A DNA stretch of 64,000 nucleotides from Desmodesmus armatus (taxonomy: Eukaryota > Chlorophyta > Chlorophyceae > Sphaeropleales > Scenedesmaceae). Of this stretch, positions 4,793-63,999 are shown in pieces; the stretch's first letter is position 1; the number at the start of each line of letters is the position of its first letter. The position numbers were made by a program, and so were the translations under genes. The stretch lies in NCBI GenBank assembly GCA_007449985.2, contig VIIQ02000150.1, positions 169,915 to 233,914 of the forward strand, read 5' to 3'. Below the pieces are notes generated by a model that did no database searches, had not been told where the DNA came from, and saw only the letters and a list, made by a program, of their open reading frames with translations.

Positions 4793-7700
4793 CAGCACCC
4801 CTGCCCAGAGGCTACCCTGCGCCTCCCTTATCCCCGCAGGGCAGTCAGCTGTTGGATGCCTGGCACCACCAGCCTGTCACCCTCAAGGGTATCAGCTGGC
4901 CAGGCTTTGCACAGCAGCCGCCAGGCCTGGAGGGCCTGAGGCTGGGCAGGAATGCATCCATGGAGGAGACAGACATGCATGCCATTGTCTACCAGCTCAA
5001 GCTGTTGGGTGAGTATACTGTCACTGATCACCAGCTGTCAACCCTCTGAACCAAACAACACTTGGTTAATCAAGCAGCAGTGACCAAGCATGGTTACTAA
5101 ACCCACCCATGAGCTGCCCTTCTTGCAGCTGGCCAATGAGTTGTATGCAGTGGTGCAAATAGTGTGGAAAAAGGCTGTGGGGCAGTTCATAAGGGAGCCA
5201 TACAAAAACATGCATGCTCACATATGTGTCGGTGTGTGCTGTTGCTGCAGGGTTCAACACTGTGAAGCTGCCTTTCAGCTTCCAAGCCCTCAAGGTGACA
5301 CAGCAACAGCAGAACTCCTTGATTTGGGTCAGCCAGCAGCTTGGATAGATATAGTGATGAGGATAGCTTTGTCTGATTGTGCAGTCACATGCTGGAGTTT
5401 GCCACTGACCCCAAGTTGCAGCAGGCCTACACAGTAGAAACATGCAGGGGAGACAGCTCATCTGCCTGAGCTGGTGTAAGTCCCACTGGTGCCACCAGTG
5501 TAAGTCCCACTGGTGCCAACAGTGTAAGTCCCACTCACTCCCAATGATTTCAAACAGCCAACTGTTGGCCCTTTCTACTCTGCATGTGTCTTTCACCCCG
5601 TTCTTCCCCCCCCCCCCCGGCCAACCACCTCCAACAGGCCGCTGCCGCAAACCAAACAGGCCCTTGCCAGGCCAGCAGCAGATCAGCGTGGGTGCGCAGG
5701 GCCACGGACCCAGACCTGCGGCATGCCGACCTCCCAGCTGCAGATGACCTCCCGGAGCCTGCGATCTACCTGCAGAGCACCAACGGCAGCTGCAACAGCT
5801 ACCTCCCAAACACCAGCGGCCTTGGCCGGCTGCTGTGGACAGTGCAGTACCTCGTGGCTAATGGCTTCTATGTTGTGGTGAGATGGGGAGCCACGAATCA
5901 GGAGGGTTTGGGGTTTAGGGCTTGGGCCCTAGACCACAGAGAAAAGGGTTGAAGAGCGTGTTTGTGTGCAGGCTGCATGTAGGGCTGCAGAATGGGCCCA
6001 TTTGCTTTGCAGCTGTTGCGGCAGTGACATGGCAGCTGTCCGGCCTGGTAGCGGCTGCTGTGGACAGTGCAGTACCTCGTGGCTAATGGCTTATATGTTG
6101 TGGTGAGATGGGAAGCCACAGTTCAAAGGGTTTGGGGTTTAGGGCTTAGCTGCATGTAGAAAAGTAGCAGCAAAACAAGGGCAAAGTGGTGAAGGCCTGG
6201 GGTGGAGGATGCAGCATGTAGGGGCAGGCGTGGTGCAGAGTAGGGGTGAAGTGGGGGGTGCTGGGGCTATCACATATCAGGCCTGATACATGCTCACATT
6301 GAGGGGCTGAAGGGCCAATACGAAGGCGATATGGAACTCAGCCAGAGATATGTGTGACAACATTTGTTGCTGGCCGGTGACAACGTTTCCCTGCCCTGCA
6401 GTTGAGCTACCAGCCTGGCCCAGGGGAGCAGGTGCACACAGACCGCGAGGTGTTTGCGCTGGCCTGGCTGTCCCTGTGGACGCCCCTCACCTGCCTGGAC
6501 AACTTCTCTGCAGACATACGGGGCAGGCTGCTGCTGGACCTGCTGAATGAGCCCAGCAGGCTCAGCGGGGGACTGGGCTGGAGGTAAGGGTGATTATGGG
6601 TCGACATTGGATGTTTTCGTGAAGGGGGAGGCTACCGGCTGGCCACGCGTACATGTTGGTGGACATGGTAGATGTGTTGGGAGATGAGTGTGACTGTAGG
6701 GGCAGCAACTCGGTTGATGAGAAGCCGGGACAGCTCAGTTACTTGATGCAAACTCTCTAACTGCTGCTGGTCCTGCTGAACCAACCCAGCAGGCTCAGCG
6801 GAGGACTGGGCTGGAGGTAGGTGTGATTGTGGGTGGATACGGTAGCCGTAGCGGGAGTTCTGTATGGGTGGGCAACTCTGTCACAGGGAAACCGAGGCAG
6901 CTCACAAGCCCTGCTTCCTAACCATGTTCCCAACGATCTCCAGTGCATTTGGGCGTGCCTGTATTCCTCATCCCAAGTGCTGCGGCTGATGCATGTGCTG
7001 TGGCCGGTGTGCCCACCAATAATGCTGTTTGAGCAACCACCGCAGCACGCCTCGCTCACGCTGTTGCGCCATACTCCTTGCTGCCATTGCTGCCACTGCT
7101 GCCACTGCTGCCATCGCTGCCATTGCTGCCACTGCTGCCATCGCTGCCGTTGCTGCCATTGCTGCCATTGCTGCCATTGCTGCCATTGCTGTTGTTACTG
7201 CCATCGCTGCCATTGATGCCATTGCTGTTGTTACTGCCATCGCTGCCATTGCTGCCATTGCTGCCATCGCTGCCATTGCTGCCATTGCTGTTGTTACTGC
7301 CATCGCTGCCATTGCTGCCATTGCTGCCATTGCTGCCATTGCTGCCATTGCTGCCATTGCTGCCATTGCTGCCATTGCTGCCATTGCTGCCATTGCTGCC
7401 ATTGCTGCCATTGCTGCCGCTGCTGCAGCCCTGACGGCTCCAAGCCTGGCCTGCGGCAGCTGTACCTTGCAGCCATGGACAGCATTGAGGGTGTCACACC
7501 CAGGGACGCCCTCTTCATGCTGCAGGGCTCAGCAGTGTCTCAGTACTGGGCGACAGATGCGGGGGGAGGCCTCAACGCTTACGGCTTGTCGCCAGGTGGG
7601 TGACGAGGCGGGTAGCGCAGCAGCCATGTGCTGCTGCCACTGCTGCTTCTGCCTAGCCCTGCTGCTGCTGCTGGTGGTGGTGCTGGATGGACCTGTGTTG

Positions 7701-9085
7701 GTCCCACCCCAGTTTTGTCCAAATACATGCATCAGTATTGTTTCTGAGCCTGCACACAAAGCATCAGATGTTTTTTATCACATGCTGTTGCTGCCGCTGC
7801 TGCTGCTGCCGTTTGCCGCCGCCGCAGGTGACGGCTTTGTCCTGGACGATGCCGCCATCACCGCCTATCAGCTCTCAGACCCCAAGCCCTTCCTGTCCTC
7901 CCTCCTGCAGCGTCCCTACTTCAACAGGGTGCTGCTGGCCCCACACCTCCTGGGCCCTGACAGCAGTGGCGCTGTGCTGGACACACCAACGGACCTGGTG
8001 GCTAAGATGGACAGCAGCTGGGGGCTGTTGGCGCGGGAGGGCTTCTGCAATGGCACTGACTGCTTCCGGCTACCAGTGGTAGCAGGTGAGAGAGAGCCTC
8101 TCTCTTCTGCTAGTGCTCAGTGTGTTGGAAGGCGGGGTTAAGGCTGATTTCACAGTACAGACGACCCTGTGGGGGTTGTCCGAGGGCTTGTTGCAGTTGA
8201 CAGTGCAAAAGTAGGGGAGGGAAGGCGGCTTAGGTACTAACGGTTCTGAGTGAGAGCCCTGGAGTGCGGAATGTGTGATCAGGGCCTGAGTTGTGGTCTG
8301 TGCGGATCTTTTTGTTTTTCCTGCAGGCGAGATTGGCAGCCGGCTGCAGGCTACAGAGGAGCATCAGTACTATGATGCAGTGGCAAGCCATGCAGGGCTT
8401 TCGAAGCTGCCTGGCGCTGGGTCAGCGGCCGGCCACAGCACGGCACAGCAGCACCTGTCTGGCTGGATCTGGGCGGGGTACAGCAACGGTGAGCTGACTG
8501 TACATGCTGAAGGTTCTGACAGTGTTGATTGTGTGGTGTCTGTAAGGTATGTATGAGGTCGAAAATCAGTCAATGTGCGAGGTGTGTGCAGAAGTGTGAT
8601 TGATTGATTTATTAATTGATGTCAGCATACTTTGGATGATGGCCAGCACTAACACCCCATTCTTTGCAATGAAGGAAGTGTAACTGTGCAGCAGCTCAGC
8701 AGCTGTTACTGCTGCTGCTTTTTGTATGCAGTGACTGGACCAGGCGCCCTGCTTGAAGGTGATTGGGGCCAGTTTAACTGGACAGCCCTGCGATTCCTCT
8801 CCCAACACTTTGGACTGCAGCCCTGGTTCAAAAACCCAACAGCCTGGATCCAGCACAGCAACAGACAGCAGCAAGCAGATGCAGCCGCCGCCGCAGCTAG
8901 CGCAAAGGGTAAGGCAGGTAATAGTACGTTGCTGGGAGCAGCAGGTAATGTCACGGGTATGTTGGAGAAGCTTTACCAGAAGGCTTCAGCTGACAGTGAC
9001 CTCAGGCAGTCTGCCGTACTGCCAGCACTGGCAGACGCTGCTGCTGCTGCTGCTGCTGCTGCTAATGTCAGCCTCACCTCCACCA

Positions 9086-9139
<54 letters not shown>

Positions 9140-11143: not shown

Positions 11144-12124
11144 ATGCTGCGGCACTTGCTGGCAGCGTGTCGACACAGCGGCAAACTGAGCACGCAGGGT
11201 AGCCTTTCACTTTCAGCAGCATGGAGCACGGAAGCTTGCACATTTGGACAAAGTCATAGCAGAAGCTACCATGTGGCTCACCTAGCTTCGAGGGGTGTCA
11301 TCAGTGTGCGGGGTCAGGATGCAGAGCAATTCATGCAGGTGCGTGACACGTGCATCGTAGCTACGAGATTTGTGTCGGATCATCAGCAGCTACAGCAGCA
11401 CCCCGGCAGCACTGCAAAAGTCTGCTAATGCACACTGCCAGGCTTGCAGCCAGCAGCTGTCAGAAGCAGCGCACAATGCCTTGGTTTTACCAGCAGAGCA
11501 TGTGCTTTTACAAACAGCTGGCAGCTGAGAGGACACTGTTTCGAAGATGAAGCCCAGAAGACAACTGCAACACCATTGTTTTGGGGGTGCGGGTGGGGGT
11601 GGGTGGGTGGGTTTGAACTTCTAGACCGAATGCGCGCATAGCAGGTCCGCCCACAAACCAGATGGGTGCTTTCATCTCTGGGCTGTACCCTCTGCACTTG
11701 CCATATCAGCCAGTCGTGTCTGCCTTTGTGTGCATGTAGGGCATGACTACCAATGACCTGCGGCCCTTGGAGCAGCCTGGCACAGGACCTATTTACACAG
11801 TGCTGCTGACAGCCAAGGGAAAGTACCTACACGACATGTTTGCATACAGCATACCAGGTGCGCAGCAAGAGCTGCTGACAAGGCTTTGATCTAGATTGGA
11901 AAATGCTGCTGCTGCTGCTGCTGCTTCACGTACAGCTAATCATGTTTGCCTTCAGCATAACAGGTGTGCAGCAGGGGTTGCTGACAAGGCTATTCATCTT
12001 GATCGGAAACTGCTGCTGCTGCATCAAGTACAGCTGGTTTCGTATGCCTACACCTTACCAGCTTGAGCTACGCACCTGAGGTGTGCAGCAGGGGGTGCTG
12101 GGGATGCTTTTACCCAGGGCAATG

Positions 12125-12158: not shown

Positions 12159-15100
12159 GTGCCCAATAACCGCTCGCTGAACACACCCTGCCCCCCTGCA
12201 GGTGATGAGCAGCAGTTGCTGCTGGATGTGGATGCTGCTGGAGTAGCCAGTGCAATGCAGTGGCTCAGCAGGTATGAGCTGACTGTGTTGGCGCAATCTT
12301 GTGCAGCTGGCATGTAGCGCACATGCAAGTCACATGCAAGCAGTTCTCTCAGGCATTAACAACGTCCTTGAAGAAGGTCGAAATCTGGAGTGCATCGACG
12401 GCAGTTGGAGTGTAACACAAGCTTTTGGAGGGTGGGGTGTTTGGGGATGTCCTGCTGCCTGTACTGGTTGCATCCCCGCCTCCTGAAGTCAGTCACAGCA
12501 AGGTGGCTGCTGGCGCACCCCAACGCAACATCCTCATTCCTGTTCCTTCAGGTGTCGGTGTAACATCCTCACTCTTTTTCTTTCGGGTGTAACAACCTCA
12601 CTCTTTTCCCTCCAGGTACAAGTTGAGGCGGCAGCTGGTGCTTGAGGATGTCAGCAGCAGGGTGGCTGTGTGGGCGGCTTTTGACGGCCAGCTCAAGGCA
12701 GGCACAGCAGGTGGGTTGGCAGGTCGGTCTGAACTTCAGCGGAGTAGTAGGCAGTGGCTGCCAGCAGCAGCAGCAGCAGCAGCAGCAGGGTGGCTGTGCG
12801 GGGCGCTTGCAAGGGGCAGCTCACGGCAAACACAGCAGGTGGGTTGGCAGGCCGGTCTGAACTCCAGCGGATTAGTAGGCAGTGGCTGCCAGCAGCAGCA
12901 GCAGCAGCAGCAGGGTGGCTGTGTGGGCGGCTTTCGAGGGGCAGCTCAAGGCAGGCACAGCAGGTGGGTTGGCAGGCCGGTCTGAACTCCAGCGGATTAG
13001 TAGGCAGTGGCTGCCAGCAGCAGCAGCAGCAGCAGGGTGGCTGTGTGGGCGGCTTTCGAGGGGCAGCTCAAGGCAGGCACAGCAGGTGGGTTGGCAGGCC
13101 GGTCTGAACTCCAGCGGATTAGTAGGCAGTGGCTGCCAGCAGCAGCAGCAGCAGCAGCAGGGTGGCTGTGTGGGCGGCTTTCGAGGGGCAGCTCAAGGCA
13201 GGCACAGCAGGTGGGTTGGCAGGCCGGTCTGAACTCCAGCGGATTAGTAGGCAGTGGCTGCCAGCAGCAGCAGCAGCAGGGTGGCTGTGTGGGCGGCTTT
13301 CGAGGGGCAGCTCAAGGCAGGCACAGCAGGTGGGTTGGCAGGCCGGTCTGAACTCCAGCGGATTAGTAGGCAGTGGCTGCCAGCAGCAGCAGCAGCAGCA
13401 GCAGCAGGGTGGCTGTGTGGGCGGCTTTCGAGGGGCAGCTCAAGGCAGGCACAGCAGGTGGGTTGGCAGGCCGGTCTGAACTCCAGCGGATTAGTAGGCA
13501 GTGGCTGCCAGCAGCAGCAGCAGCAGCAGCAGGGTGGCTGTGTTGGCGGCTTTCGAGGGGCAGCTCAAGGCAGGCACAGCAGGTGGGTTGGCAGGCTGGT
13601 CTGGACTCCAGCAGAGTACTAGTAGTGGGCAGTGGCTAGCAGCAGCAATAGCAGCAGCAGGGTGGCTGTGTGGGCGCTTGCGAGAGCCAACTCAGGGCAC
13701 AGCAGGTGGGGCTGTGGCAGGCACAGCAGGCGGGATTGTGCTAGGTGGTGAGCGGCAGCAGGGTGGCTGTGTGGGCTGCAAGGGGCTGTCAACTCAAGGC
13801 AAGGACAGCAGGTAGGCATTACCTACAGCAGAAGCTGCAGCACCCTAAACCCTCCCCCAACACAATGTCACCACTGTGCAGTTGACTTGCGGCAAGACCC
13901 GCGGCTGCCTCAGCTGGGCCTACGGGGGCTCTTTGACGTGCAGCAGCTGCCACCCCCTCCCCCGCTTGCTTGCTTGTCTGAGAGTGTTGTGGAGTGAAAC
14001 ACATGTACAGCCCACCTTCTACAACTCACCACTAACATGCAACCTCACAACCCGTACTTCATGCATGGCAGGTGACTGACGGCAAGACCCGCGGTTTCCT
14101 CAACTGGGCCTATGGTCAGCTACGTTTGTAATGAACCTAAACCTGAAACTGCACACCTCACACCCTCACTCACACAGCAATATCACCATTGTGCAGGTGA
14201 CTGGCGGCAAGACCCGCGGCTTCCTCAGCTGGGCTTGCGGGGGCTGTTTGACGTGCAGCAGCTGCCACCCCCTCCCAGTGAGGCGGGGGGCACCAGCAGC
14301 AGGAAGCAGCGGGCAGCGGGGATGTCTGTCGTCAGCGAGCATGCACACCAACGCTGGAGGTACCAGCTGGGGGTGGCAGAGGGCGACAGGGAGATCCCTT
14401 CTGGTGAGTGGCTTGTTGTGTGACACTTTGCTACACATCAGGGCTGACGTGCTGGTTCTCTTGGATTGTCAGGGGGGGGGGGGAGTCCCACCGGCTAGCC
14501 AGACACACCGGAATCAGGCAAATGTGCGCACTTTTGACCTGGGCCTGCAGTGGCTGCCTGTCGTCAGCGAAAACACACACCAGCGCTGGAGGTACCAGCT
14601 GGGAGTATCAGAGGGTGACAGGGAGATCCCCTCTGGTGAGTGGGGGTGGATTTCTGTTGGTGACGGCTGGGCAAATAGGATGTTGCATCGACGGGCGCAA
14701 GCAGCTACCCTGCTGCTGACTGCAGCAGCTGGCAACCCACCAGGGGGGGTTGCAATTCAAAGCCAAGTTGCAACACACCAGGGCTAATGTTTTTTTCCGT
14801 CCCTGACCAATTGAGTCAGAGTACGAGTTGGTTGCATCCCTGCTCCACTCATGTCTGTGGTAGCAGACATGCTTGTTTGTGTTCTAACTGATGTTTTTTG
14901 CAGTATGACCAATTTTTGCAACCTGCTCAGGGCAATGGCCCAGTAGTTCTCCCACCCCCCCAAGTGAAACGATGCAAATTTTTGGCACCACAAACTGCAA
15001 GGACTTCTCAACTCAGTAGGGGATGCAGCATCCGGCCGCTCACAACTTGTCACACCAACATGCACTGCAACTCAATTGTCACTCGCATGCACTGTGCAGG

Positions 15101-16188: not shown

Positions 16189-17504
16189 TATGCGAGCAGT
16201 AACATGTTTTCTTTTGCATCGTTGTCACATTTTTGGGCGGCCTGACCTCATACTCATGGTAATGAACATGGTCTTGAACCAGCCGACGTTTTCAGTGTGC
16301 CGCTACAACACAGCTGTCCGCCGTGATCTGCGAGCGTTGACGTGCATGGGTATTGCTGTGTGGGTCGACTGACGTTTATACAGTGGTAATGAATATGGCC
16401 TTGCACCAAGCAAATCAGGGTGGGCAGTACCGCCCAGCGGTCAAAGTATCCACTTGTAACATCCTCAGACCTGACTTGTCCATTCAGTGTTGTCGGTTAC
16501 TGTTGGCCGGCCAGTACCACTCCAAGAAACACAACTCCTCAGCCCCTGAACAGCATCACCACAGTCATGGTCACAACCAACTACAACACCTGCTACAAAC
16601 CAGGGTGCTCCGCTGAGTGCGCTGTCACCTTGTAACTGTTCAGCAGCAGACTGATAGTGTCCTACTGGAAGCTTTGGACTGACAAAGCAGCGTCCTCTTG
16701 CGGTGTGCCATACTGTATGTCAGCCCGCATTCGGCTGTGGCATTGGCTCCGCATGGGGGCACCTTGGCCTGTGGCTCACATTACAAGAACCTCACACTAC
16801 AAGAACCTAGCTACCTTCGCTACTACAGCTTCAATGGGGTCAGCGCCATACCTGGCTGTCCTTACTGGAGCCACTTGAGGCCCATGAAGCGTCAACATGT
16901 TTGGTAAGGAATTGGAGTTTGGGCACATAAACAACTGACAAACCAAAACCATCAGCAACAATCATCCGGCGAGCACCCATCATGCAGCATGCCCACTCAA
17001 ACACCACCCTATCAAGTCAAATCAAATCAAAGTTACACCTGTAGCTATGAAGCTCAAGAGCTCATGCCAGCCATTCACTGATATCACGGAGATAGCACAA
17101 CAAACCAGAAGGAACAACATACTATGCCTCTACTGCCACTACATAGCTGCTGCCTCTGCCCCATACAGGAATGCATGCACCACCTGCCTTGTACACATGA
17201 AGTCACCTGCTGCACCACGTGCTGACTTGCCGAACAACGTCACCGTCTTACCAAATGTTGCCCAATCAGATACCTCCCTGCGCCTCTACTGCTGCCTGCA
17301 TAGCTGCTGCTTCCGACTCGCTCAGGTATGGCTCAGGTATCATTAGGTCATCCTGCACAGCCTGCTGCTTCCAATTCATCCAGGAATACATGCATCTGCA
17401 CCGCCCGCCCTGTACAGGGCTCAGCCTGCTGCATCTTATGCTGATTTGCCAAGAAAAAGCATGACAGTCTCATCGGACCGGGTGGTCACCCGCACGTTGC
17501 TCAC
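16189..17504. other. Convergent intergenic region with degenerate copies of the BAHD terminal exon
   Basis: This region lies between the IBA57 stop and the BAHD stop. The BAHD 3' end (around 17515-17615) is echoed on the same strand at about 17275-17440 and more weakly near 17120-17190. The shared words are gctgcctgcatagctgctgcttc and the complement of the 'GGGWMVHVFLDE' coding block. No separate gene is supported. Confidence 0.5.
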
Positions 17505-19140
17505 TCAGATGCCTCCCTGAGCCTGCACTGCTGCCTGCATAGCTGCTGCTTCTGACTCATCTAGAAACACGTGAACCATCCAGCCACCACCCTGTGCTGG
17601 TGTGGCCTGCTGCGTGAGCACCAGTGGGTAGGGCTGTGGCTGGCTGAAGCTGGGGACTGCAAGGCTTGGCACCTGACCAGCAAAGGATGTGTCTGCCTGG
17701 AAGTGAAGGGGCCACCTGCATTTGAGGGCATTTGAGGGCGAGCCAGGGAAGTCAGACAAGGATTGATGCAGCACCTGACACACAGGGGGTGGCCCAGGGG
17801 TGTTGCAGGAGGCATGGGCTCTTTCAATGCTATGAGAATGGGGAACACAAGGAAACCTTGAAAGGGTGGCAAACATTCACAAAATGGAACAGAATTATTC
17901 AAACAAATGCAACATTTCTCAAGTTCAATAAAAAGAGGAGCCAAGTCATGGACCCTCCTGACAGGCAACCTTGGCTGCAGGTATGTCCAACACCCTTGCC
18001 ACGCTGAGCTTCTTCTTGGAACCTGGCAGGCCTGACCCCCCCCCCCCCCCTCCACCCCATGATCGGCAACATCGCACCCCCCCCCCTCAGCCCCTTCCAT
18101 GACCCCTCCACTTACCCCCCTCCCCGCCACCCAAGTCTGCAGACCCTCTTCCCCCCTCGACCCCTTCCGCCCCCTCCCCTACTCCATCCACCCCCACCTC
18201 ACCCCCAGCCATCAACAGCTGTCCACCCTTGCAGCTACCGTCCAAAAAAATTGCAGTACAGAAGAACAGGGGCGTTTGCCAAATGCATCAAAGAAGTCCA
18301 CTGGCAGCACCAGTGGCCCTCCCAGCCTTGTTGCGAGCAAGCAGGGGCCCTGGACGCCACTCACTGTGTGGTGGACAGTGACGCCAGCAGCCCCAGCTGC
18401 ATCTGCTGCTGCAGCAGTGCAGTGGGCCCCATGGCATGCAGCCGCCTCCAGGTCACCTCACCAGCAGCAACACCAGCACTGCTGCCGACACCTGCAGCCC
18501 CCTTTGCAGCAGCGGTAGTCGGCGCTGCTGCTGCTGGTGGTGCTGCTGGTGATGTATCCACTGCCGCCATTCCCTTGATGCCTGCTGCCCAAGCCAAGTC
18601 AGGCAGCCACACCTCTGACGACCTGAGGGGTGGGTGAAAAAAGGTAAAGTACAAGAACAAGAAGGGTGATACTGATGGAGTGCGCAAGCAGCTATGCTGC
18701 AACTGACTCTAGCCACGGAAGAGACACAACCAGCACGGGAAGAAGGTTGGGTGGTGTCAACACACAGATGCACATCATCGCAAGGGTGTTTCACGCCCCC
18801 CGGGGTGTACACCAGACAGATGCAACTAGCTTGGAGGGTGGAGACCCACATGCACAATCCCAACCTTCTATATTGCTTGACGCTTGCCCTACGTATGCCA
18901 TCAGGTGTGCCTCCCTGCGCATGGGCGTCAAGGCAAGCATGCCTAGAACAGTCTCTGACGCAGCGAAGGAGGGCTGCAGTGCACCGAGCCAACCCCGCAA
19001 ATGAACTCTAGTGCCAAAAGAAAGGTTTCTAGCAGTCACTGTGCAGCCATGCTTGCGGGATTGAGCAGTTGCTGACCAAACCGTCACCATCTGCACCTGA
19101 CCAATTTGCAGCACCCACCTATGGGGCGCTTGCGAGCGCC

Positions 19141-38900: not shown

Positions 38901-41239
38901 TACCCCCTGCGCCTGCAGCAGCCGACTGATGCTGAAGAGTGCTGGCCGCTGATGCTTTTTACCAGTCAGTAAACTGATCCAGCACCAATTTTCAAAGTGA
39001 AAACTGAATTTTTTTGAAAAAATTGCTGATTATCGTCCTGCCGCTGCTGCTGCTGCTGCTGCTGCTGTTGTTTATGCATCATACCCGGCCTCGCCTGCAG
39101 CTGACTTCAGCAACTATTCTGCGTGGCACTACCGCACGCTGCTGCTGCCGCGATTGCACAACGAGGACATCACAACAGGTGGGGGGGGGGGTGCCAGGGG
39201 GGTTGCGAAGGGGTGGGGGGTCTGGGTGGGGGGGTGCATGTATGTCTATCAGCAGAAAAGGAGAAGAGGCGTGTGCTCCAGGTTATTCCTGTGCAAGGCT
39301 GGGAGTATGTGGTGTCTACCCCTCCGGGAGTCAGGTTTTTGTAATTTGTGGGTCAACCTTATTGTCACACACATTTGCGAACTCTGTCTCTGCTGTGTCG
39401 TACAGTGTCTTTTGACGACCTGATGAAGTCCTCGGGGCAACAGCAGCAGCAGCAGCGAGCAGCAGCAACAGCAGCCGGAAACAAGCAATATGTCAGAGCC
39501 ACAGCAGCAGCAGCAGCCACAGCCACAGCAGCACCACCAGCAGCAGCAGCAGCAGCAGCAAGGCATTGCTCCTGGTGCCCTGATGGGTTCATTCCAGGGT
39601 TCTGCCAGTCAAGTGCGGCCCATACCACCACATGTACTGGACCAGGAGTATGACATGGTGCACCAGGTGTGTTTTTATGGAGGGCGGGGGGGGGGGGGGG
39701 GGGAGGGCGGGGGGGACGGGGTATGCGGGTGTGGTAGTGGTGGACTGCTTGGGGGGGGGGGTGACAGTGGATTTGAGGCAACCTCAGTATATCTGAATGT
39801 GCAGCATTAGACCTTCAATAGTGCTGGACCAGGAGTATGACATGGTGCACCAGGTGGTGGTGGGGGGGGGGGTGAAAGGGGGAGTTTGGAAATTGTATGC
39901 ATGTACAGACCCTGTGAACTCCCACGTATGCTGCAACAGGAGTGTGACATGGTGCAGCAGGTGGGGGGGATGGGGTGGGGGGGGGGTGGGGGAAGGGATT
40001 GTGTGCGTGGGGGGGGGGGGGACAAGGAGTTTCTGAGAGTGATGTTGGGGCCCTGTGGCCACTCAATTTTGTGGCCATCCTTACGCTGCAAACAAACTCA
40101 GTGCATTCACGCATTTCTCTGCGTGCTGCACCAGAGTATGATGCGCCTGGCGAGTCTGAGTGAGTGAGCGTGGATGCGCAGGGTTGTTCAAGGGGGGCTG
40201 AGTGAGGGGCGAAGGGGGGGGGGGGGTGATTCCCAGCCAGAACGCTCACACATGTCAGATGGTCATCACTCACTCTCATTCCCCTGCCCCCGCCCTCCCA
40301 GGCGTTGGCCACTGACTCTCTGGTGACGAGTCCCCATCCCTGTCTCCCTCACTGTCTCCACCCCCCCCCCCCCACACACACACACACAACCCAGCATGCA
40401 TGTGCACGCATGCAGTCTCTCTGTGGACACACACACATTGGCTGGATGCACTCACTGTGTATACACACACACAACCAAGTACTCCATCTGTCGCCACACA
40501 CACGCAGCAAGGCTTGCATGTTCATAGTATGCTAGCTACACATGTATCCTCTATGCCTAACATACAACTTGCCCCCCCCCCCCCCCACACACACATACAC
40601 AGGCGTTTGCCACTGACTCTGGTGACGAGTCCCCTGGATATACTACAGGTGGCTGCTGGGCAACAGCCTGGCACACATGCACCAGGCACAGCAAGCAGCA
40701 GCAGCAGCAGCCACCGGCAGCAGTGGCAGCAGTGGCGGCAGCAATGGCGGCAGCAGTGAGGAGGTGGAGGAAGCTAAAGCTGTGCTAGGAGAGGTGGGTC
40801 ATTAGAAATTGTTGATGATGAAGTCTAGTGCATACTAAAGACTTTGTTCGCAATGGGAAGCTGGGCTACGCAACCTTGCGATTTGATCCAATCAAGCCTA
40901 CTTGGTTGGCAATCCAGGTTGACCCCAAAGCCCCAAGGGCCAGGGCCAGCTCTAATTGGAGCATGCATCAGGGTTTCACCCCCTGGCGGGAGGGTCAGCC
41001 CTTTCAAACTTGTCAACTCAGTTTTGCTTTTTCTTGTGTTTGTTGGCAAGATGCGCCAAGTGAGGCTGCTGCCGCCACTGCTGCTGCCGCTGCTGCTGCT
41101 GCTGCTGCTGCAGGTGTTGGCACGTGAGGTGTCCCTCTTTGCCAAGTGTTGCCCCAAGACCCTGACGCTTCATACACCTGCCATACCCATTTTTACTTTG
41201 CTGTACATGAACATGCCTCCTGCTGCTGCTGCCGCCGCC

Positions 41240-41271
<32 letters not shown>

Positions 41272-41552
41272 AGGTGTTGGCGCGTGAGATATCCCGCTTC
41301 GCCGAAGCGTTGTCCCAAGACCCCGACGCCAAGTGGCCGCTACTCATGACAGCACGCTTGAAAGAGGCCCAGCTGTCCCTGGGGCTGTGTGATCAGGGTT
41401 TAGGGGGCCAGCAGGACTCCGTAAACCTCAGGGCTGAGGTTCAGGGCCTGTATGAACAACTGGCAGAGTTAGACCCCATGAGGGCGGGGTACTATGCTGA
41501 TGCTGCTGCTGGCAAGGCGTTTGTGGTGGTGCAGGCATTGGGTACGGTGTGA
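35994..41552 (+). CDS. RGTA: Rab geranylgeranyltransferase alpha subunit
   Basis: This is the alpha subunit of protein prenyltransferase type II, which with the beta subunit geranylgeranylates Rab GTPases presented by REP. Exons: 35994-36176, 36916-37020, 37415-37521, 38122-38237, 39101-39178, 39406-39666, 40603-40793 and 41274-41552. The start 'MHGRPREYKNKL' is family-typical. PPTA repeats follow: 'IWNYRRETL', 'YSTWHHRKWVVL', 'NFHAWNYRQFL' and 'NYSAWHYRTLLLP'. After these come 'PHVLDQEYDMVHQ' and a last 'YYRWLLGNSL'. The C-terminal part is 'VLAREISRFAEALSQDP'. Exons 2, 4, 6 and 7 carry A/S/Q-rich inserts. Two apparent one-base frame shifts interrupt the model, one in the Q-rich part of exon 6 (about 39430-39490) and one in exon 7 (about 40630, in a C run before TGG). 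They are either sequence errors or damage. Every intron but one shows duplicated exon edges. Confidence 0.88.
37166..37270 (+). repeat. Copy of RabGGTase alpha exon-2 3' edge
   Basis: The bases coding for 'EAELALTQ', the gtgggt donor and the following (AGC)n/ggcgg intron segment (around 37000-37090) recur here almost unchanged, 170 bp downstream in the same intron. Confidence 0.85.
37590..37650 (+). repeat. Copy of RabGGTase alpha exon-3 3' edge
   Basis: The end of exon 3 (coding for 'HADRAREMKLVNR') with its donor recurs 125 bp downstream as 'HADRAREMKLINR' followed by gtgcaa. Confidence 0.88.
38300..38770 (+). repeat. Array of RabGGTase alpha exon-4 3'-edge copies
   Basis: The end of exon 4 (38196-38237, coding for 'LSTEGELAYSSSSIAG') with its donor recurs four times, near 38308, 38427, 38580 and 38718. 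Units are separated by G-rich spacers. Each unit keeps the (AGC)n serine run and most keep a GT after gcag. The number of AGC triplets varies between units. Confidence 0.92.
39815..39970 (+). repeat. Two copies of RabGGTase alpha exon-6 3' edge
   Basis: The segment coding for 'LDQEYDMVHQ' plus its donor (39636-39666) recurs at about 39821-39855 ('LDQEYDMVHQ' again) and at 39929-39962 ('QECDMVQQ'). Each is followed by a poly-G tract. A more distant echo lies at about 40130-40145. Confidence 0.9.
40300..40345 (+). repeat. Copy of RabGGTase alpha exon-7 5' edge
   Basis: An acceptor (cctcccag) and about 38 bases matching the start of exon 7 (40603) occur here, followed by divergence into a C-run/CA-repeat intron. 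The true exon 7 is 300 bp downstream. Confidence 0.85.
41090..41170 (+). repeat. Copy of RabGGTase alpha exon-8 5' edge
   Basis: The (CTG)n tract, acceptor and about 50 exon bases coding for 'VLAREVS' duplicate the start of exon 8 (41274). The copy lies 160 bp upstream. Confidence 0.88.
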
Positions 41553-41629
41553 CCCGTGTAAAGTTGTCTTGTGAATTGCCGGGGGTCTTGTTGCTGCGGC
41601 AACTGATAGGGCCGGCTGTTTATGTTTGT

Positions 41630-42350
41630 ATGCTGATCCTGCTGCAGGCAAGACTTGTGGGGTGGTGCAGGCACTAGGCACGGTTTGAATCCCCCCCCCC
41701 CCCCCCGCCCCCCAAGGACCCGGCTTCTCTCTGGTGGGGGGTTTACTGCCAATATCAGCTCTGCTTGGCAGCTGCCTAGTCATGGGCTTCCAGTTCCGTC
41801 CTGCTTAGGCAGTTCTAGGCTGGTTCTGCTGCAGGCTCTTGTGGTGGTGCAGGCACTGGAGACGGTGTGAAGCCCCCCCCCCCCCCCATCCCTCCCGGGG
41901 GCCCCCGGCTTCTGGTGGGGCTCTTGCTGCAGCTGCCACCAGCTCCTCTGCTTGGCAGACACCTGGTTGTGTGGGTTGCAATTGGTTGAGCTTTGGCCCT
42001 GCTTGGACTGGTCTAGACTGATGATGCGACAGGCAAGGCTTTTGTGGTGGTGCAGGCACTGGGGTCGGTGTGCAGCACACCAGCTGGACGTTTCAGGTGT
42101 GTGGTTCGCTGTTGGGGTTCGCTTTGTGTTCCAACGCTGCCAGCGCTGCTGAGGACAGTGCGATGTTCACAGTGTAAATGGCACATGCTGCTTCTGACGG
42201 GAATCTTGTCGTAGCTGCCACTAGCTGTGCTGCTCGACAGCCGCCTGGTTCAACCTGTAGTACAGCGGCTTTGGTCGTGATTGGACAGATCTAGGCTGAT
42301 GCTGTTGCAGGCAAGGCGTTTGTGGTGGTGCAGGCTTAGGCAAGCACTGT
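41630..42350 (+). repeat. Four downstream copies of the RabGGTase alpha terminal segment
   Basis: The last about 55 bases of the gene (coding for 'GKAFVVVQALGTV' and the stop, ending at 41552) recur near 41631-41689, 41825-41871, 42012-42073 and 42296-42343. Copies 1 and 2 keep an equivalent stop codon (TGA). Copy 3 has lost it and copy 4 has TAG earlier. The array lies outside the coding region, in the presumed 3' UTR or flank. Confidence 0.88.
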
Positions 42351-43634
42351 GTGCAGCACAGCATGCGCATAGCCAACTGTATCAAGCTGTGCCTGCTTGT
42401 CTTGTGACACAGTAGCAGTCAAAGCAGGGACCGGGGCAGGCCCAGTCTTGCACGGGCAACAGCAGTAGTCACGCTGATCAGGTGCAACAGCAGGAGGGTG
42501 TTCTGCAGGAAGACCCACTTGCCTTCTAGTGGGCTGTTGAACCTTTAGGGAAATGTGATGCTGTACTGCCATGTCCAGATGTAGGGGGTTGAGTCATGAG
42601 TCAGTGTCCAAGGTTGTTTCTGTCATAGCTGGGGGTGGGTTCTGCATGGCAGGTGGGCGTGGTAACTGCTCATCATGAAGATAGTATGATGACATCCTTT
42701 CTATTGCAATTATCACGGCTGTGTAGTCTCGGAACCAGCTGAGCAGGCCGTGCTCCCCAGCAGATACAGCTTGATCAAACAAACGTCTGCTACGCGTTAT
42801 TCACGGAAACTCCCCTTCAGAAAGCTGCGGGTGAGTCGGGAGGTCACGCAAATGTTGGATCGAGGTTGAGCAGTTTGCTCATGGGCTCTCTGCAGCCAGC
42901 ACCGGCATGCTGAGCCTTCGAATGGCCATCTGTAATCATGGCCATGTGTATAAGGGTGGCCAGACGTTGCACAGCCGCATATACTGGCTGCCCCGATGAT
43001 CAGCTGTTGATGGTTTAGCCCGACACCCGGCTTCAGCTTGCAGGAACGCTTCCATGTTCAGCAAATGTGCATGTTACATCGGTTGTCCTGCTGCAGGTGC
43101 TCTGAATCCTACCAAGGAGTGGGCACAGCCTCCCCAGGGGCCCCAGAGGACAAATTTAAAAGCCCCTAAGGCACTGGGTCTCCACAGCACAAGGCAACAG
43201 GGGGGCTGCTGAAAGGAGGACAAGCATCATGTTGCAGCAGCTAGGCACTTCTGCAGCTTGAAGATTACACCTTGCAGGTATGTGGGTTTGGGGGTGTGCT
43301 GGGGCCGCTTTCGACCTCGGCTGTCAGCACGGCCTGCATGCAGTGTGTTCGCTGCGTGCGCAGGACCTGCAGACACTCGTACGCGAGGGTGCTCTTGTAG
43401 CTGGGCAGTGTGCTCATACTGGTATGTGCTCAGCTTGGCTGCTAATATGTTGAAGTTTGACCAGGATCAAGCGCCAGTGGTGCAACAATCCCAGCGTGAA
43501 GAGGTCCGCTCTTAGGGCATATGCCCATGTTCACGGGCCCTTGTCAGTGTGTCCAATGCCACCTACCTAGGGCTGCACATGCACTATTCACTGTAGCCAC
43601 CTCCTCACATGCACATGACGGTGCTCTCCTGCAG
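42351..43634. other. Region between RabGGTase alpha and the unidentified gene
   Basis: This region may include first exons of the next gene. Candidates are a piece before the donor at 43278, ending with gtatgt, and a segment around 43362-43420 coding for 'DLQTLVREGALVAGQ'. Neither joins in phase with the first solid exon at 43635. Minus-strand open frames at 42336-42572 and 42594-42782 have no recognised domain. Confidence 0.35.
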
Positions 43635-55627: not shown

Positions 55628-57331
55628 ATGCAGCACCACAGAAGCAGCAGCAGCAGCAGCAGCTGGGTTACTTGGGCGAGTGTGGCAGCCTATGCCTACT
55701 CCTTCATTGCCTTTGGACTGCAGGTTGGTATCTTGGCCAGTGTTGCATCACTTGGTCCCTTCTGCGCAATGCAGCTGAGAGACATGCAATGTGTGTGGTA
55801 GTACAAGGGCCCTGAAAGCCCTTAGCTGCAGACTACCTCACAGGAGGTGCACTATTTGCCAGCATGGGCTATGCAACAACGGCGCTGACAATCTGGCGTG
55901 ACTGTCTTCAGTTTGGGCAATCTATCAGTTCCGGCGCACGTGGGGGGGGGGGGGGGTGTCACTCTCAGGGGGTCACTCTAGCATGATACCTGCAGCAATG
56001 GTGCTGGGTGAAGTTGCCAGAATCGCCGTCTACTCTGTCGCTGCTGCTCAACCTGCCGCCGCTGCTGCTGCTGCTGCAGGTCAATCTGTTGGGCCCCACA
56101 GTGTCTGTGTTGGCCCGCAAGCTGGGTGTGGTGGAGGCTGACCTGGGGGTCATCTTCACAATCAACGGCCTGGCATCGATTGTGGGTGCCGTACCCTCAG
56201 GATACTTGATTGACAAAATGCCTGGTCACTTGGTGCTGGCAGCTGCACTAGCATTTGAGGTAAGGGTGTGTGTGCGTAAGAAGGGGGGGGGGGTGTAGTG
56301 AGTGCATGCAGACGCGGCCCGGGGGGGGGGGGGGGGGGGACAGAGTCTGAGAAGAGGTGGGTGCATGGGTGTGGTGGAGGCTGACCTGGGGGCCATTTTC
56401 ACAATCAACGGCCTGGCTTCGATTGTGGGTGCAGTACCCTCAGGGTACCTGATTGACAAGATGCCTGGACATTTGGTGCTGGCAGCTGCACTGGAATTTG
56501 AGGTGAACGGGGTTTGTGTTTGGTGGGGGGGGGGGGGATTCAGTGGCTGCATGCAGAAGCGGCACGAAGAGGGGGGCGGGGGACACCCTTTGGGCTGAGG
56601 TTGGTGCGTGGGTGTGGTGGAGGCTGACCTGCGGGTGACAATCGATGGCCACGTCCTGATGCCCTGTGCTTCCCAATTTCCAAATACCCATTACCCTTGT
56701 TGACACTCTGTCACCCCCCCCCTCGCTTCTGTTGTCTCTTTGTCAGGCGGTTGGCTTTTTGCTGATGCCCTTGTGCAGCAGCATGTTGGCTCTCACAGCC
56801 GCCTTTGGTCTGCCGTGTCACCTCCCTTCTGTGACAATCGAATGCCATGTCCTGCCCTAGGCTTCCCAAACCCCAACCCCAACTACGCACCTTCGTAGAC
56901 ACACTGCCCTCCCCTCTCACCCCCCCCCCCCTTCTGTTTCCTTTTGTTTGTTTTGCCAGGCTGTAGGCTTTCTCCTGATGCCCCTGTGCAGCAGCATGCT
57001 AGCGCTCACAGCAGCCTTTGGCACCGTGGCCCTCTCATGGAACATCATCAACACTGCCGGCAACACATACGTCCTCTGGATTGCAGCAGAGGCAGCAGCA
57101 GCAAAGGCAGCACGCACCCGCAACAGCAGCAGCAGCAGCAGCACCCCTGAAAGCAGCTCCGTTCTGATCAATACAGTGAATGCTGCATTCGGTGCTGGAA
57201 GTTTGGCGGCTCCTGTTGTGGCGGAGTTGTGTGCGACGAGGATGAACGCCCCTCTTGCTGCGTATTGGATAACAGCAGCACTGACAGCAGCGTCGGCAGT
57301 GACCTTTCTGCTGCTGCCGAGCCCTAAACCC

Positions 57332-59532: not shown

Positions 59533-62500
59533 ATCATCATCCACCACCTCAATCATCACTCGGGGTCCGGCGCCCCCTTCACTCCCTGCTGCCGCTGCTC
59601 CCTCAAACGCGGCGCCTCCAAAGGCTGCCACACCCTCGACCGTGTCTGTCACACTGACGGGTATGCCGTCCACCAGAATGTCCCGGGTCACCTCCGGCAC
59701 CTGTATAACAATCGAAACAAGACAGCGGTGCGGTACGGGTGATTTGGTACACTTTAATGCATACTTTAGTGCAGACGTTGCAGTGTGATGGGGTGAATTT
59801 CCAAACATGCCGTCCACCAGAATGTCCCGGGTCACCTCCGGCACCTGTCGGTGTAACAAGACAGCGGTGCAGTGCACGTGTATTGGTGCAAGGTTGAGTG
59901 AAAAAATTGCAGTGTAATGCAGTAACGCAGGCATGCCGCTGACCAGGACTCGCCTCCGGCACTTATAAATGTAGCAAGTACCAAGGTGCACGTCAGTGAT
60001 GCAGACAGTTTGCGACAATTGCAGCCATGCAGTGGTGGCCAGCTGATGATACTGGAAATCTATGTCCAGCCTGAACAAGATGAGCACACCCGTCCCCTCT
60101 ATCAGGCGTGAACTGGTATTAGTCCAGAACACCAGTCCTCATTCCTGGTATCACCCACCTCTGTGAGCCCCTGTCCCTGTGCTGCGCTGAGGGCGCTGAG
60201 TCCCCCCCCCCCACTGCCCCCCCCCCCCCGGGCATCCCCCCCCCCCCCCAACCCACATAGTGTCAGCCCTCTTGCCGTGTACCCACCTCTGTGAGTCCCT
60301 GTCCCTGTGCTGCGCTGAGTGCGCTGAGTCCCGCGTAGAACAGCGACAGGCCCTCCTCAAGCTGCGGCAGCAAGCCCTCATCAGGGATCATGCCATACCT
60401 GCAGAAATGCATGTGCGCATGGCAAGCAACACTGAGGTCAAGACAATTATCCGATGTGACCACTCAAGATAGTAACTTGTGTACGGGTGTGTTGGTGGCG
60501 CATAGTGTGCATTGAGGGCGTGTGGATCTGTCCGGCCAGATGCGGGTAGCTGTGTTTGGCGGGACCTGGCCGTCCTGCCAACCCCTTCCCTCAACCCACG
60601 CACACACACAATGCACGCAACACGGCAACCCCAACCCTGCCAACATGCAACCCGCCAACGCCGGCCCCCTCCCTCCCACCACGCACGCACACATGCATGC
60701 ACGCACGCCCCCCCCCCCCCCCCCCACCTGCAAGGCACTGCCTCTGAGTATATCGCGTTGGCCACATTCGCCCCCGACAGCAGCTCGTTGATCTGCTTTG
60801 TCAGCCGCCGCTGCATGGCCTGCGTCTTGCGGGGCATTGCTGCCACCTTTTTGTCCAGCTCCTGAATGCGGGCGCTATAGGCCTGCTGCAGCAGCAGTGC
60901 GCTGTACACGTGACCCTCAGACCCACGCGCACACATCTGCAGGGTCGGGAGCGCCGGAAGGGTTGGGGGGGGGGTGGGCGAGGGGTGTTGAGTGAGTGCT
61001 GCTTGTGATGAGCTGGGTGAGTGGAGAAGATGGGGGGAGATGGTGGTGATGGTGGTTGAGGGTGTGCAACAAAGAAAGACACAGGATGCTGCAGCAGCAG
61101 CGCGCTGTACACGTGACTTTCAGACCCACGCTGTGTGACACTGGAACGTGAGTGTGACAAGGGGTTGCTCCCCGCCCAAAAAGGCAGGCTGCCCTGCTTC
61201 TGTTCAACCTCTAATGTATATTGCATCAGGCCGCCCGAGCAGTCATGGTCCATCTCGGTGTCACAGCCCACCAGCTCCTGCTCTGACACGCTGACCAAAA
61301 CAGTTACAGGTACAGCAATTGGCTCAGCAAAAGCTGAGCAACCCAAAAGGGAGCCAGAGACTCATGGGGAAAACTCTCCCCCCCCCCCCCTGGCCCCCAT
61401 CACCCTCTGCAGTGCAATGCAGCTGGCCAATTCGTCCAGGTGAGGTTCCTCCATCTGCCCTTGCCCCTCCCCTGCTACACCCCAAGCGGCAAGGGTCCTC
61501 TCCCCTCCCACAAACACCAACACAAGACACACACATCCCATACCCCCCCGCTATGAAAAGAAGAGTGCTGCAGGCAACCAGCTGGCAGTGCTCCAAATCC
61601 ACTGTGCCACTGGGGAGTGAGAAAAGAAGTTGCTCACCCTCTGCATTGCGCTGCAGCTGGCCAGTTTGTCTAGGTCAGGTGTCTCCATGAGCAGCTCCTC
61701 CATCCGCCCCTTGCCTCCCCCCCCCCCCCCAGCCCGCAAAGCAAAGCACTGCTGCTTGCAGTGGTTGAACATCTTGCTCTCTGCAACACAACTGGCCCCT
61801 TCCCTCCCACCCCCCCCCCACATACACACCCACACCTCCTCCTGCCCCCCCCCCTGGCCCCCCTCACCCTCTGTAGGGCGATGCAGCTTGCCAGTTTGTC
61901 CAAATCCGGTGTCTCCATGAGCAGCTCCTCCATCTGCCAGGCCAGGTCGTATGCGGGGTACACGCCAGCACTGACCAGCAGACGCTGCTCCTTGTCGGGG
62001 ATAGACTCGGCTAAGGTGCCCTCCAGCAACAGCAGAGACTCAGAGATCTCAGCCTGAGAGACAGCAGCAGCAGCAGCAGCAGCAGCAACTCAGACAGTTG
62101 TGCCTCAACTGTGACTCATTGTTGGGTATTGACTCAGCCAGGGGATGGGGTGTGGGGTGGTGGGAGGGGTGGGACGGCAAGACATTCTCAGCCGGAACGC
62201 CTTGCTGGGTATGGATTTGGGTTGGTGTGAACCCCAACAGTAGGAGCGACTCAGGAATCAACCCCCTCTGGATTGCAGGACCCTTGGGACTTGGGGTTTA
62301 GGCCCCCCACCCTGAGCCGTGTGCTAGCAAGTTGCTGACATGTCTGTAAGCACTAGATGCGTGAAACTGACAGTGAGAGTGAGAGTGATCTGTCCATAAG
62401 TGGCACCTGGCACTCTGAGTGACAACTTGTCCTGGGGCACCAAATAGCCCTTGCCGGCACACACACACATCGTCATTGCTGCTGCTGCAAGCCGCATAGC

Positions 62501-63999
62501 CGTTGTTGGTTGCATGACCCGATCATTTGTTGCATGAACCACACAACTGATACGCCCCCCCCCCAACACACACATCTCTAGCAATACCTTTGACCATAAA
62601 CTCTGAACCCCTCAACCTCAACCATAAACCCCGAACCCATCAACAACCTGTAGGTCGCTGAGTGCCTCTGCCGCCTCCTCCTCCCCCATGTCTCCACTTG
62701 ATGGACCCTCAAGCGCAGACTGCCAACGCTGCTGCCACTCACCCTGATCAAACAGGCAGGCATGCAGACAGCACAGCAGGAACAGCAGCAAAGCTTCACT
62801 CAGATGAACATGTTCATTGATGTGTTCCTTGTGCCTCATTCAGCCCTCCTTCGGTCACTTCAAGCCCTTCAAACACTGTGTGTGTCTGGACAGCCAATCT
62901 AGACAACCCTTGGGACTGCCGTTGGGATATTGGACCAACCTCAGCTTGCCTATGCCAGGGGCTCAGGGTGCACAAGTAAGACCCCCAAAGAGAGTCCTGC
63001 ACCACCAATCATGTGTTAACACACCTGTGCCTTGTCCGCCACTCCCTCCAGTTCTGCTGCTGCCTCACTGCTGAGTGTTGCCTCCAGGCTGCAGCGCCTG
63101 CAGCTGCAGGGCCGACCAAACAGCTGGAGGTGGGCAGACTGACGGGCAGCAAGGGCAAGGTCACCACACTGCAACACAGTGGAACAAGGGGGGGATGTTG
63201 CGGGTGTTTGCAGAGTGGTTTGGGGGGGGGGGGTGAGGGCATGTATGATGCTGCTGGTCAGTACAGCAAGAGATCAGGCTAGCTGTGTATGTTTGGGGCA
63301 GGGAGGGGGGTGCATGCGTAACCGCTGAGCGATGTGTGGGCAGCCTGACGCGAACACCCCCCCCCTCCCCGAGAAGCACCCCTGCACTCACCCTCCCAGC
63401 TTGTTTGCCGTGACCTCTGCCCCCTCTGGTATGTCTCTTCAGTGGCGTGCACCAACATGAACCTGTCAACAACCACCGCGCTGGTGTTGGGGGCACAGGA
63501 GTGACGCAGCAGCGCAAACTCTGGCCACACACCGATGAAACCTGTGGGGCGCTCGTGACGCACCTGCAGACACGGGGTTGGGTGGTGGTGGTGGGGGGGG
63601 GGGGGGGAGGGGCGCATGATTGGTGTCTGTGAGCGCGTATATGGTTGTGTGTGGGTTTGGGGGGAGGGGGGGAACAGAGGCTGCAGCATGATGGCTGAGT
63701 GGCGCAGCAGCACAAACTCAGGTACACACCAATGAACCCAGTGGGGCGCTTGTGACGCACCTGCAGACAAGGTGTTCAATGATGGCATTAGGACCAAGAT
63801 CAATATCAGGGCTTTTGTCAAGGTGAAAGGGGAGGGGGGGTAGAGCATGGTTGCGTGTTGCGTGTGTATGTGTGGTGGTTGGGGTGGGGGTGGGGTGGGG
63901 GGTACAGCTTAAGGGCCGAGTGGCGCAGCAGCGCAAACTCAGGCCACACACCGATGAAACCTGTGGGGCGCTCATGGTGCACCTGCAACCACACAGCAT
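59431..63999 (-). CDS. SET-domain protein with post-SET zinc motif (SMYD/SDG-like), 5' part outside the window
   Basis: This is a probable protein-lysine methyltransferase. Exons on the minus strand: 63563-63392, 63168-63025, 62743-62648, 62053-61868, 60936-60728, 60398-60287 and 59700-59431. The first visible exon has the SET core 'GFIGVWPEFALLRHSCAPNT', matching the family NHSCxPN AdoMet motif, then 'VVVDRFMLVHAT' and, after an apparent one-base shift, 'RDIPEGAEVTANKLGG' (GEE-type motif). Exon 2 has the post-SET Cys cluster 'LFGRPCSCRRCSLEATL'. The rest is helical ('ARIQELDKKVAAMPRKT'), followed by a C-terminal poly-A/acidic tail ending in SS. All joins after exon 2 are in phase. The frame shift near 63420 lies in a G-rich stretch and could be a sequence error. 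The upstream SET-N region is beyond the right edge. Confidence 0.82.
59800..59970 (-). repeat. Copies of the SET-gene last-exon 5' edge
   Basis: The start of the last exon (from 59700, coding for 'VPEVTRDILVDGIP') with its acceptor recurs at about 59803-59850 ('VPEVTRDILVDGM'). A truncated form lies at about 59935-59965. Confidence 0.85.
60150..60205 (-). repeat. Copy of the SET-gene exon 60398-60287 3' edge
   Basis: The end of the exon (coding for 'LSALSAAQGQGLTE') with its gtgggt donor is duplicated about 130 bp downstream in the same intron. Confidence 0.85.
61085..61135 (-). repeat. Copy of the SET-gene exon-60936 5' edge
   Basis: A segment coding for 'RGSESHVYSALLLQ' parallels the exon start 'RGSEGHVYSALLLQ' and lies upstream of it in the preceding intron. 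Confidence 0.8.
61385..61725 (-). repeat. Two copies of the SET-gene exon 62053-61868 3' edge
   Basis: The end of the exon (coding for 'MEELLMETPDLDKLASCIAL' and its donor) recurs at about 61637-61715 ('METPDLDKLASCSAMQR') and, shorter, at 61391-61460. Both copies retain the ggtgag donor context. Confidence 0.9.
63690..63985 (-). repeat. Two extra copies of the first visible SET-exon 5' edge
   Basis: Acceptor plus about 65 bases coding for 'RPTGFIGVWPEFALLRHS' occur at 63563 (true exon), 63760 and 63982, a period of about 200-220 bp. The two upstream copies lose similarity after 'RHS' and run into G/T-rich intron sequence. Confidence 0.9.

Follow-up and report, generated by a model that had tools for sequence, protein, structure and literature searches.

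Direct copies of exon edges in introns and 3' flanks of seven genes in the green alga Desmodesmus armatus

A 64,000-nucleotide stretch of the nuclear genome of Desmodesmus armatus, referred to as the window (C146:169915-233914 of an assembly of 115.8 Mb in 831 contigs; GC content 56%), carries direct copies of the edges of exons in the introns and 3' flanks of seven genes. Each copy reproduces the end of an exon together with the adjoining splice site, or the end of a coding sequence together with its stop codon, and lies beside the original in the neighbouring intron or 3' flank. These copies are most probably the remnants of recurrent local tandem duplications that were tolerated and then decayed neutrally. 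The process is present elsewhere in the genome, where some genes are densely affected and others sparsely.

Exon edges are copied within the window

Exon maps were produced with a small home-made gene finder, for which the window and 26 sampled loci served as training data, and those of the window were then hand-corrected with reading frames and homology, giving gene models from sequence alone. With simple repeats masked, the window contained 57 direct local repeat pairs and a single inverted one (pairs less than 1 kb apart, E < 1e-4). Comparison of the sequence against itself at each offset from 18 to 1500, termed the off-diagonal finder, returned 32 families in the window and none in three shuffles. 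The smallest offset per family ranges from 24 to 467 bp with a median of 175 bp (31 window families, under 600 bp), and the outermost repeat blocks lie at 5817 and 63992. An earlier note on this DNA had proposed such a self-comparison and had described about 20 direct exon-edge repeats in at least seven genes with 2 to 10 copies each; the repeats and the copy numbers are borne out.

Curation and base-by-base alignment gave 23 exon-edge families with 46 copies, distributed as two families in the GH5-like gene, four in the IBA57-like gene, one in the BAHD-like gene, three in the caleosin gene, six in the RabGGTase alpha-like gene, two in the MFS gene and five in the SET gene. The duplicated unit consists of about 30-137 exon bases plus the splice site or stop codon, and recurs as a direct repeat within the neighbouring intron or 3' flank. 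All 23 families concern one edge or stop each, and in none of them is a whole exon duplicated with both of its splice sites. The largest family is the IBA57-like array, in which one original and nine further copies were aligned. Divergence of the exon part ranges from 0 to 32% per copy with a median of 9.8% (46 pairs), and this spread indicates many events across time.

The edges flanking each curated intron were also used as probes of that intron, with a score of at least 18 taken as a match. A copy of its own edge was present in 13 of 55 introns, and a 14th scored 17. The same threshold was reached by 3 of 5444 probes made from the edges of other genes and by none of 110 reverse-complemented own edges, confirming that the exon-edge copies are real and far above chance. 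Donor-edge copies occur in 12 of the 13 positive introns and acceptor-edge copies in seven: six introns carry both, six the donor edge only, one the acceptor edge only, and 42 neither (Fisher P = 0.0002). Donor copies, as read from the sequence, precede acceptor copies in all six introns with both, which is the expected order if each copy remains beside its original, and it follows that the copies can extend exons but cannot alone form a cassette exon. Introns with copies have a median length of 700 bp versus 330.5 bp for those without (P = 5e-6), in agreement with the proposal of the earlier note that local duplication lengthens introns.

Recurrent local tandem duplication as the probable source of the copies

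The direct orientation of the copies, their head-to-tail arrays and their position adjoining the originals point to local tandem duplication; the copies are direct and adjacent, and they derive from the same gene. Recurrent events of this kind would produce extra direct copies. A unit that spans a single exon-intron junction or a stop codon would leave the original readable via the outermost splice site or stop, and the extra copy would thereby land in the intron or 3' flank and be tolerated. From then on it drifts free of constraint, with purifying selection still acting on the working exon. Events recurring at different times, at one end of an intron or the other, would leave a longer intron seeded with decoy splice sites. 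The rate of duplication differs strongly among genes and regions. At the DNA level the events may have arisen by replication slippage or unequal exchange, and the outermost sites are presumably those that are spliced. Among 16 hand-picked two-copy families, the copies directly abut in three, of which two are intron-only, and in a further eight the spacer proved homologous on one of the two sides examined (P < 0.04, uncorrected).

Copies at other loci

The 25 nuclear loci sampled beyond the window have 698 predicted exon edges, and 79 of these match a local copy at a score of at least 20, a count based on unchecked annotation in which the gene-finder exons include some copies. Among the controls, which took in the window as well, this score was reached by 3 of 1804 control probes and by 5 of 902 reverse-complemented own edges. 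Seven loci gave two or more matches (L009 37 of 53 edges, L016 14/28, L027 9/23, L017 4/40, L019 4/23, L010 3/23 and L028 2/28), six gave one and 12 gave none, among them L004, which had a single edge to test. A genome-wide scan against shuffled controls had been suggested by the earlier note together with the claim of a genome-wide process. The part of that claim that stands is the occurrence of copies at other loci; uniformity does not, given the 12 loci without any.

The densest locus is a cullin gene (L009:1-8400, with Pfam support for cullin), in which 12 exon-edge families were curated. Its exon 4163-4368 is followed by three donor-edge copies of differing divergence. The sampled locus L012 (G000:C38:20001-30000), with a GC content of 0.316, differs from the other loci and is probably part of an organelle contig.

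Working exons are constrained while their copies drift

Synonymous (S) and nonsynonymous (N) differences were counted in the exon parts of the families, with a mutation spectrum taken from the intron parts of the window; the neutral expectation is 28.4% synonymous. In families with at least two copies the changes could be polarised as either private to one copy or common to all copies against the working exon, and those found in several but not all copies were placed in neither class. Private changes numbered 30 S:71 N in the window and 9:25 in the cullin gene, in total 39:96, a synonymous fraction of 0.289 (P = 0.92 against 0.284). Changes common to all copies numbered 12:1 and 6:1 respectively, a total of 18 S:2 N. 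The two ratios together imply that the copies evolve neutrally and that the exon is constrained; judged from these counts, the copies as a set drift while the exon is held. In addition, the exon part of 17 of the 46 window copies contains a gap that breaks the frame or a change that creates a stop.

Points against neutral decay of tandem copies, and the position of the duplications

Several results weigh against recurrent tandem duplication followed by neutral decay as a complete account. Five of the 16 two-copy families lack the spacer homology that a simple tandem unit would leave, for which later deletions or short-distance template switching could account. Across the window and loci, 13 of the 17 young best pairs, those with at least 90% identity, are not contiguous, on a measure that is lowered by the masking of G/C runs. 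Inverted local families, though rare, are not absent, numbering 11 versus 78 direct ones in the window and 26 loci, nine of the 11 being in L012 and L027. The unpolarised differences total 146 S:149 N, a synonymous fraction of 0.495 versus an expected 0.442 (P = 0.039; P = 0.059 by family bootstrap for the window alone), and the splice dinucleotides of the copies are retained above their pooled exon and intron neighbours (P = 0.032 for donors and 0.020 for acceptors). Lastly, 24 of the 32 window families touch an exon versus a rotation mean of 13.8 (P = 0.0002), a test that includes three families (25198, 25325 and 29127) that are not exon-edge copies but consist of two gene-scale repeats spaced by about 1.4 kb and one motif that recurs between two exons. 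The exon-edge share of the window also exceeds that of a simulation with uniform duplication, survival only of events that spare coding sequence, and subsequent decay, in which 41% of families are expected at edges, 29% in introns and 30% between genes. Uniform duplication alone may therefore be insufficient as a full account.

The excess at exon edges is what would be expected if duplication were itself biased to exon-intron junctions, through transcription, splicing, chromatin or intronic G/C runs, and had saturated certain genes. The 37 of 53 predicted edges with a local copy in the cullin locus and the co-occurrence of donor and acceptor copies within introns fit such a bias. As a general account it is nonetheless unlikely. 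Five of the remaining window families are intron-only and three intergenic, and in the 25 nuclear loci, where 34 of 66 families touch an exon without lying wholly in exon, 15 are intron-only and 13 intergenic, the exon-touching excess is not significant (34 versus a rotation mean of 30.5, P = 0.21). The simulation further indicates that conserved exon parts keep copies detectable for longer, edge cases being detected in 63% versus 43%. A narrower version, in which junction-biased duplication in certain genes or regions repeatedly, and into recent times, copied most junctions of a gene, frequently at the two ends of one intron, is doubtful too, if slightly less so. Were such a process true, exon edges would themselves drive the lengthening of introns, and each affected gene would be a natural library of near-identical decoys rejected by position. 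The same counts do not sustain the statements of the earlier note that the units nearly always span an exon edge and never lie purely inside an exon, as four of the 66 sample families are all-exon, matching a rotation mean of 4.2. Intron-only families were missing from a first blastn set of the window, an absence ascribed to an artefact that blastn produces close to the main diagonal; the five come from the off-diagonal finder.

Runs of at least eight G or C were considered as a trigger of duplication and were rejected. Within the window 60 of 70 such runs lie in curated introns, 43 of them G on the sense strand and 17 C, and the C runs are often near acceptors. A run falls in the span of 13 of the 32 families versus 8.1 expected by rotation (P = 0.043), and run density correlates with edge matches across 26 sources (rho = 0.54, P = 0.004). 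Yet among window introns of at least 340 bp a run does not predict a copy (P = 1.0, with 14 copy introns including the borderline 11858-12201).

Copies as functional exon ends, assembly artefacts or mobile elements

Selection for alternative exon ends would offer a different reason for the persistence of the copies, and the earlier note had suggested that they could feed alternative exons. The gene finder calls several of them as exons, and GT is kept in 32 of 35 donor copies and AG in 20 of 23 acceptor copies (window plus 11 of the 12 cullin families), upholding the view of the same note that introns are seeded with decoy sites. However, retention of the dinucleotides is not higher than that of the exon side (P = 0.43 for donors and 0.20 for acceptors). 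At donors, with gaps counted, mismatch is 8.6% for the splice dinucleotide, 10.4% for the exon side and 25.6% for the intron side, a pattern consistent with a neutral copy of a fixed site because intron neighbours change in both lineages. The idea that decoy dinucleotides are specially preserved, drawn from 26 of 26 aligned donors and 11 of 12 acceptors, was thus not upheld against the neighbouring exon sites.

The case for function is best made by the MFS intron (56123-57021), which has copies of both of its edges that differ from the originals by 17 S:3 N with no gaps or stops in the exon parts, an outlier from the neutral pattern and the main source of the unpolarised synonymous excess (129:146 by subtraction once MFS is removed). 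These are single copies, and changes there could not be polarised. Two amino-acid changes in the donor copy nevertheless speak for a decaying copy when compared with the listed homologues: one affects a position occupied by V or I in 10 of the 12 and by F in two, and the other replaces an A kept by all 12. For the set as a whole, selected alternative exons were rejected on the polarised counts, the private changes having the neutral ratio and 17 of 46 copies being frame-broken or stopped. Each copy moreover offers one splice site, with donor copies ahead of acceptor copies. A functional role for the copies is accordingly very unlikely.

False duplication of haplotypes leaves differences that look allelic and copies that are absent from other assemblies. 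The synonymous-rich differences of some pairs, such as those of MFS, do look allelic, and two haplotypes or misjoined reads placed in tandem by the assembler could produce direct repeats. This explanation is less probable still. There are up to ten copies of one edge, with divergence from 0 to 32%, and they drift neutrally, unlike alleles; 12 of the 25 nuclear loci of the same assembly have none. A second haplotype was sought, and no other long match to the MFS or RabGGTase locus was present among the candidates scored (40 of 118 and 40 of 1639, respectively).

Copies are also found in homologues. Translated introns were surveyed in 230 listed proteins (98, 12 and the best 120 of 465), 207 of which have 20 or more residues beyond the matched exons; as many are distant proteins or already spliced models, absence says little. 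Two homologues, encoded in other contigs, carry exon-edge copies. P0063, which is 97% identical to the window protein over an aligned 17%, has a repeat of APLECNLDA upstream of the acceptor belonging to the exon at 15100; the window intron is without a copy there (acceptor score 9). P0156 contains a copy of the donor edge of cullin exon 6 in a shifted frame, with a score of 90, the highest of 5424 controls being 53. Three further proteins scored above controls, P0015 (132), P0215 (62) and P0221 (55), and were not counted as they may represent the genuine following exon read in a different frame, or low-complexity sequence; P0134 (40) fell within controls and was likewise not counted, and neither were many matches of the probe IBA_e7, which are true exon matches. 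Like copies in homologues from other contigs, which are not a second assembly of the species, speak against an assembly artefact.

Introners place one shared sequence in the introns of unrelated genes, and although many introns of few genes are affected here, insertion of introner-like or other mobile elements is extremely improbable, as the copies match their own exon edges and not a common element (3 of 5444 foreign probes), with no search aimed at a shared element having been made.

Catalogue of families and other features of the window

The families of the window are listed in Table 1. The RabGGTase alpha-like pair 40299/40600 was left out of the 23 families and of the substitution counts owing to an unclear frame near 40625. 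By eye, the frame of this gene appears shifted by one base at a C run in 40602-40650, through either an assembly indel or an unrecognised splice.

Table 1. Coordinates of exon-edge and stop-codon families in the window
Gene and edge	Span	Strand	Original and copies
GH5-like donor edge	5817..6147	+	edge 5817-5923, exon end 5877; copy 6041-6147 in following intron
GH5-like donor edge	6528..6837	+	edge 6528-6604, exon end 6583; copy 6761-6837
IBA57-like donor edge	11835..12110	+	exon end 11857; two decayed copies, ~11941-12008 and ~12045-12110
IBA57-like donor edge	12652..13816	+	exon 12616-12710; nine more copies, tandem unit ~125 bp
IBA57-like acceptor edge	13821..14276	+	exon from 14197; copies 13821-13961 and 14068-14115
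IBA57-like donor edge	14320..14643	+	exon end 14403; copy 14552-14643
BAHD-like final coding stretch and stop (17505)	17257..17600	-	two 3'-flank copies, ~17257-17319 and ~17353-17432
Caleosin acceptor edge	32966..33398	-	exon 32857-33013; three upstream copies, unit 126 bp
Caleosin donor edge	33693..34062	-	exon ~33940-34110; downstream copy 33693-33819
Caleosin acceptor edge	34951..35284	-	exon 34864-34982; upstream copy 35231-35284
RabGGTase alpha-like donor edge	36987..37198	+	exon end 37020; copy 37162-37198
RabGGTase alpha-like donor edge	37478..37646	+	exon end 37521; copy 37600-37646
RabGGTase alpha-like donor edge	38193..38766	+	exon end ~38235-38237; four copies
RabGGTase alpha-like donor edge	39628..39963	+	exon end 39666; two copies
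RabGGTase alpha-like acceptor edge near 40602	40299..40634	+	upstream copy 40299-40335
RabGGTase alpha-like last-exon acceptor edge (~41272)	41065..41329	+	one upstream copy
RabGGTase alpha-like last-exon 3' end and stop (41552)	41489..42353	+	four decaying 3'-flank copies
MFS donor edge	56123..56636	+	exon 56080-56259; copy 56366-56505, partial third at 56609; tandem unit 243 bp
MFS acceptor edge	56714..57021	+	exon from 56960; upstream copy 56714-56808, offset 209-213 bp
SET last-exon acceptor edge (~59698)	59663..59990	-	two upstream copies
SET donor edge	60133..60332	-	exon 60287-60398; downstream copy 60133-60204
SET acceptor edge	60884..61131	-	exon 60728-60936; upstream copy 61087-61131
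SET donor edge	61381..61938	-	exon 61868-62038; two downstream copies
SET acceptor edge	63499..63992	-	exon 63392-63563; two upstream copies

Pfam supports caleosin, PPTA repeats (prenyltransferase alpha), SET and LRR in the window, and the matches to MFS_1, GCV_T (IBA57-like) and Transferase (BAHD-like) fall under the Pfam curated cut-off. The closest named homologue of the IBA57-like protein among the matches listed is from Scenedesmus sp. NREL 46B-D3 (77% identity), and another listed homologue has 86% identity, in keeping with a Scenedesmaceae-like alga. The GH5 name is that of the earlier note and is unconfirmed: a 60-aa exon of the gene gave no match in Pfam, and a PF00150 profile search of the whole genome found three places elsewhere, the window gene not among them. 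The last exon of the GH5-like gene (9084-10542) contains many CAG repeats, and CAG/CTG runs are common across the window.

Other repeats of the window are of different kinds. At 24956-27317 a small hydrophilic gene, LEA-like by eye, appears twice in tandem, the two units some 1.4 kb apart, which is gene duplication of the ordinary type. A long inverted repeat at 18973-20727 has arms that are 78-95% identical, with a tRNA-Pro (AGG) gene in each arm (19584-19655 on the + strand and 20190-20261 on the - strand).

Implications and relation to known systems

Junction-spanning tandem duplications tolerated by selection offer a concrete and testable route to intron growth. Introns of Tetradesmus obliquus have a mean length of 462 bp, the longest of five algae tabulated, with 7.8 introns per gene (PMC5966456), so a source of intron length is wanted. 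The choice of splice sites can also be studied here as a natural experiment: the same exon end, in most cases with its GT or AG preserved, is present in a copy some 100-300 bases away from the used site. As copies of differing age occur in one gene, the constrained original can serve as the reference for a neutral rate and spectrum. In comparable genomes, gene finders may annotate such copies as exons, as the home-made finder did here.

Mutually exclusive exons arise from duplication of whole exons with both splice sites, and constraint is seen on both copies. The alga resembles such systems in having tandem copies of exon sequence within one intron, and differs in that one edge only is copied and the copies are free of constraint. 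A literature search judged by titles and the openings of abstracts found no account of dense exon-edge copies in green-algal introns.

Intron sliding in Drosophila likewise involves regional duplications of coding sequence, splice-like sites and the removal of one copy from the message (PMC2891723). There the outcome is a few novel intron positions, whereas the alga has dense decoys of many ages within single genes. Tandem duplication of gene segments is an established model of intron gain (PMC3443670), with the tandem genomic duplication model credited to Rogers 1989, Gao and Lynch 2009 and Hellsten 2011 (cited in PMC3443670 and PMC4974935). Common to this model and the alga is the direct tandem duplication of segments carrying splice-like sequence (PMC3443670, PMC4974935). 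As outlined in these sources, the model duplicates an exonic AGGT to create a new intron, whereas in the alga existing introns grow. No new intron was seen, the copies being inside introns and 3' flanks and the homologues P0001 and P0002 joining the same exons without decoys, a comparison made for the IBA57-like gene only and at the protein level.

A close single case is the RdRp gene of potato, in which a duplication across an intron-exon boundary gave rise to intron gain (PMC4974935). In both, a local direct duplication across an existing boundary copies the splice signals too. The potato case is one event that produced a new intron and inserted exon sequence (PMC4974935), whereas the alga has tens of events in few genes, within existing introns and flanks, with decaying copies and with IBA57-like exon joins that match those of homologues. 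The kind of event is known from single cases, and it is the density and clustering in the alga that are unusual: a known kind of mutation here enlarges existing introns, many times per gene, and leaves neutral decoys behind.

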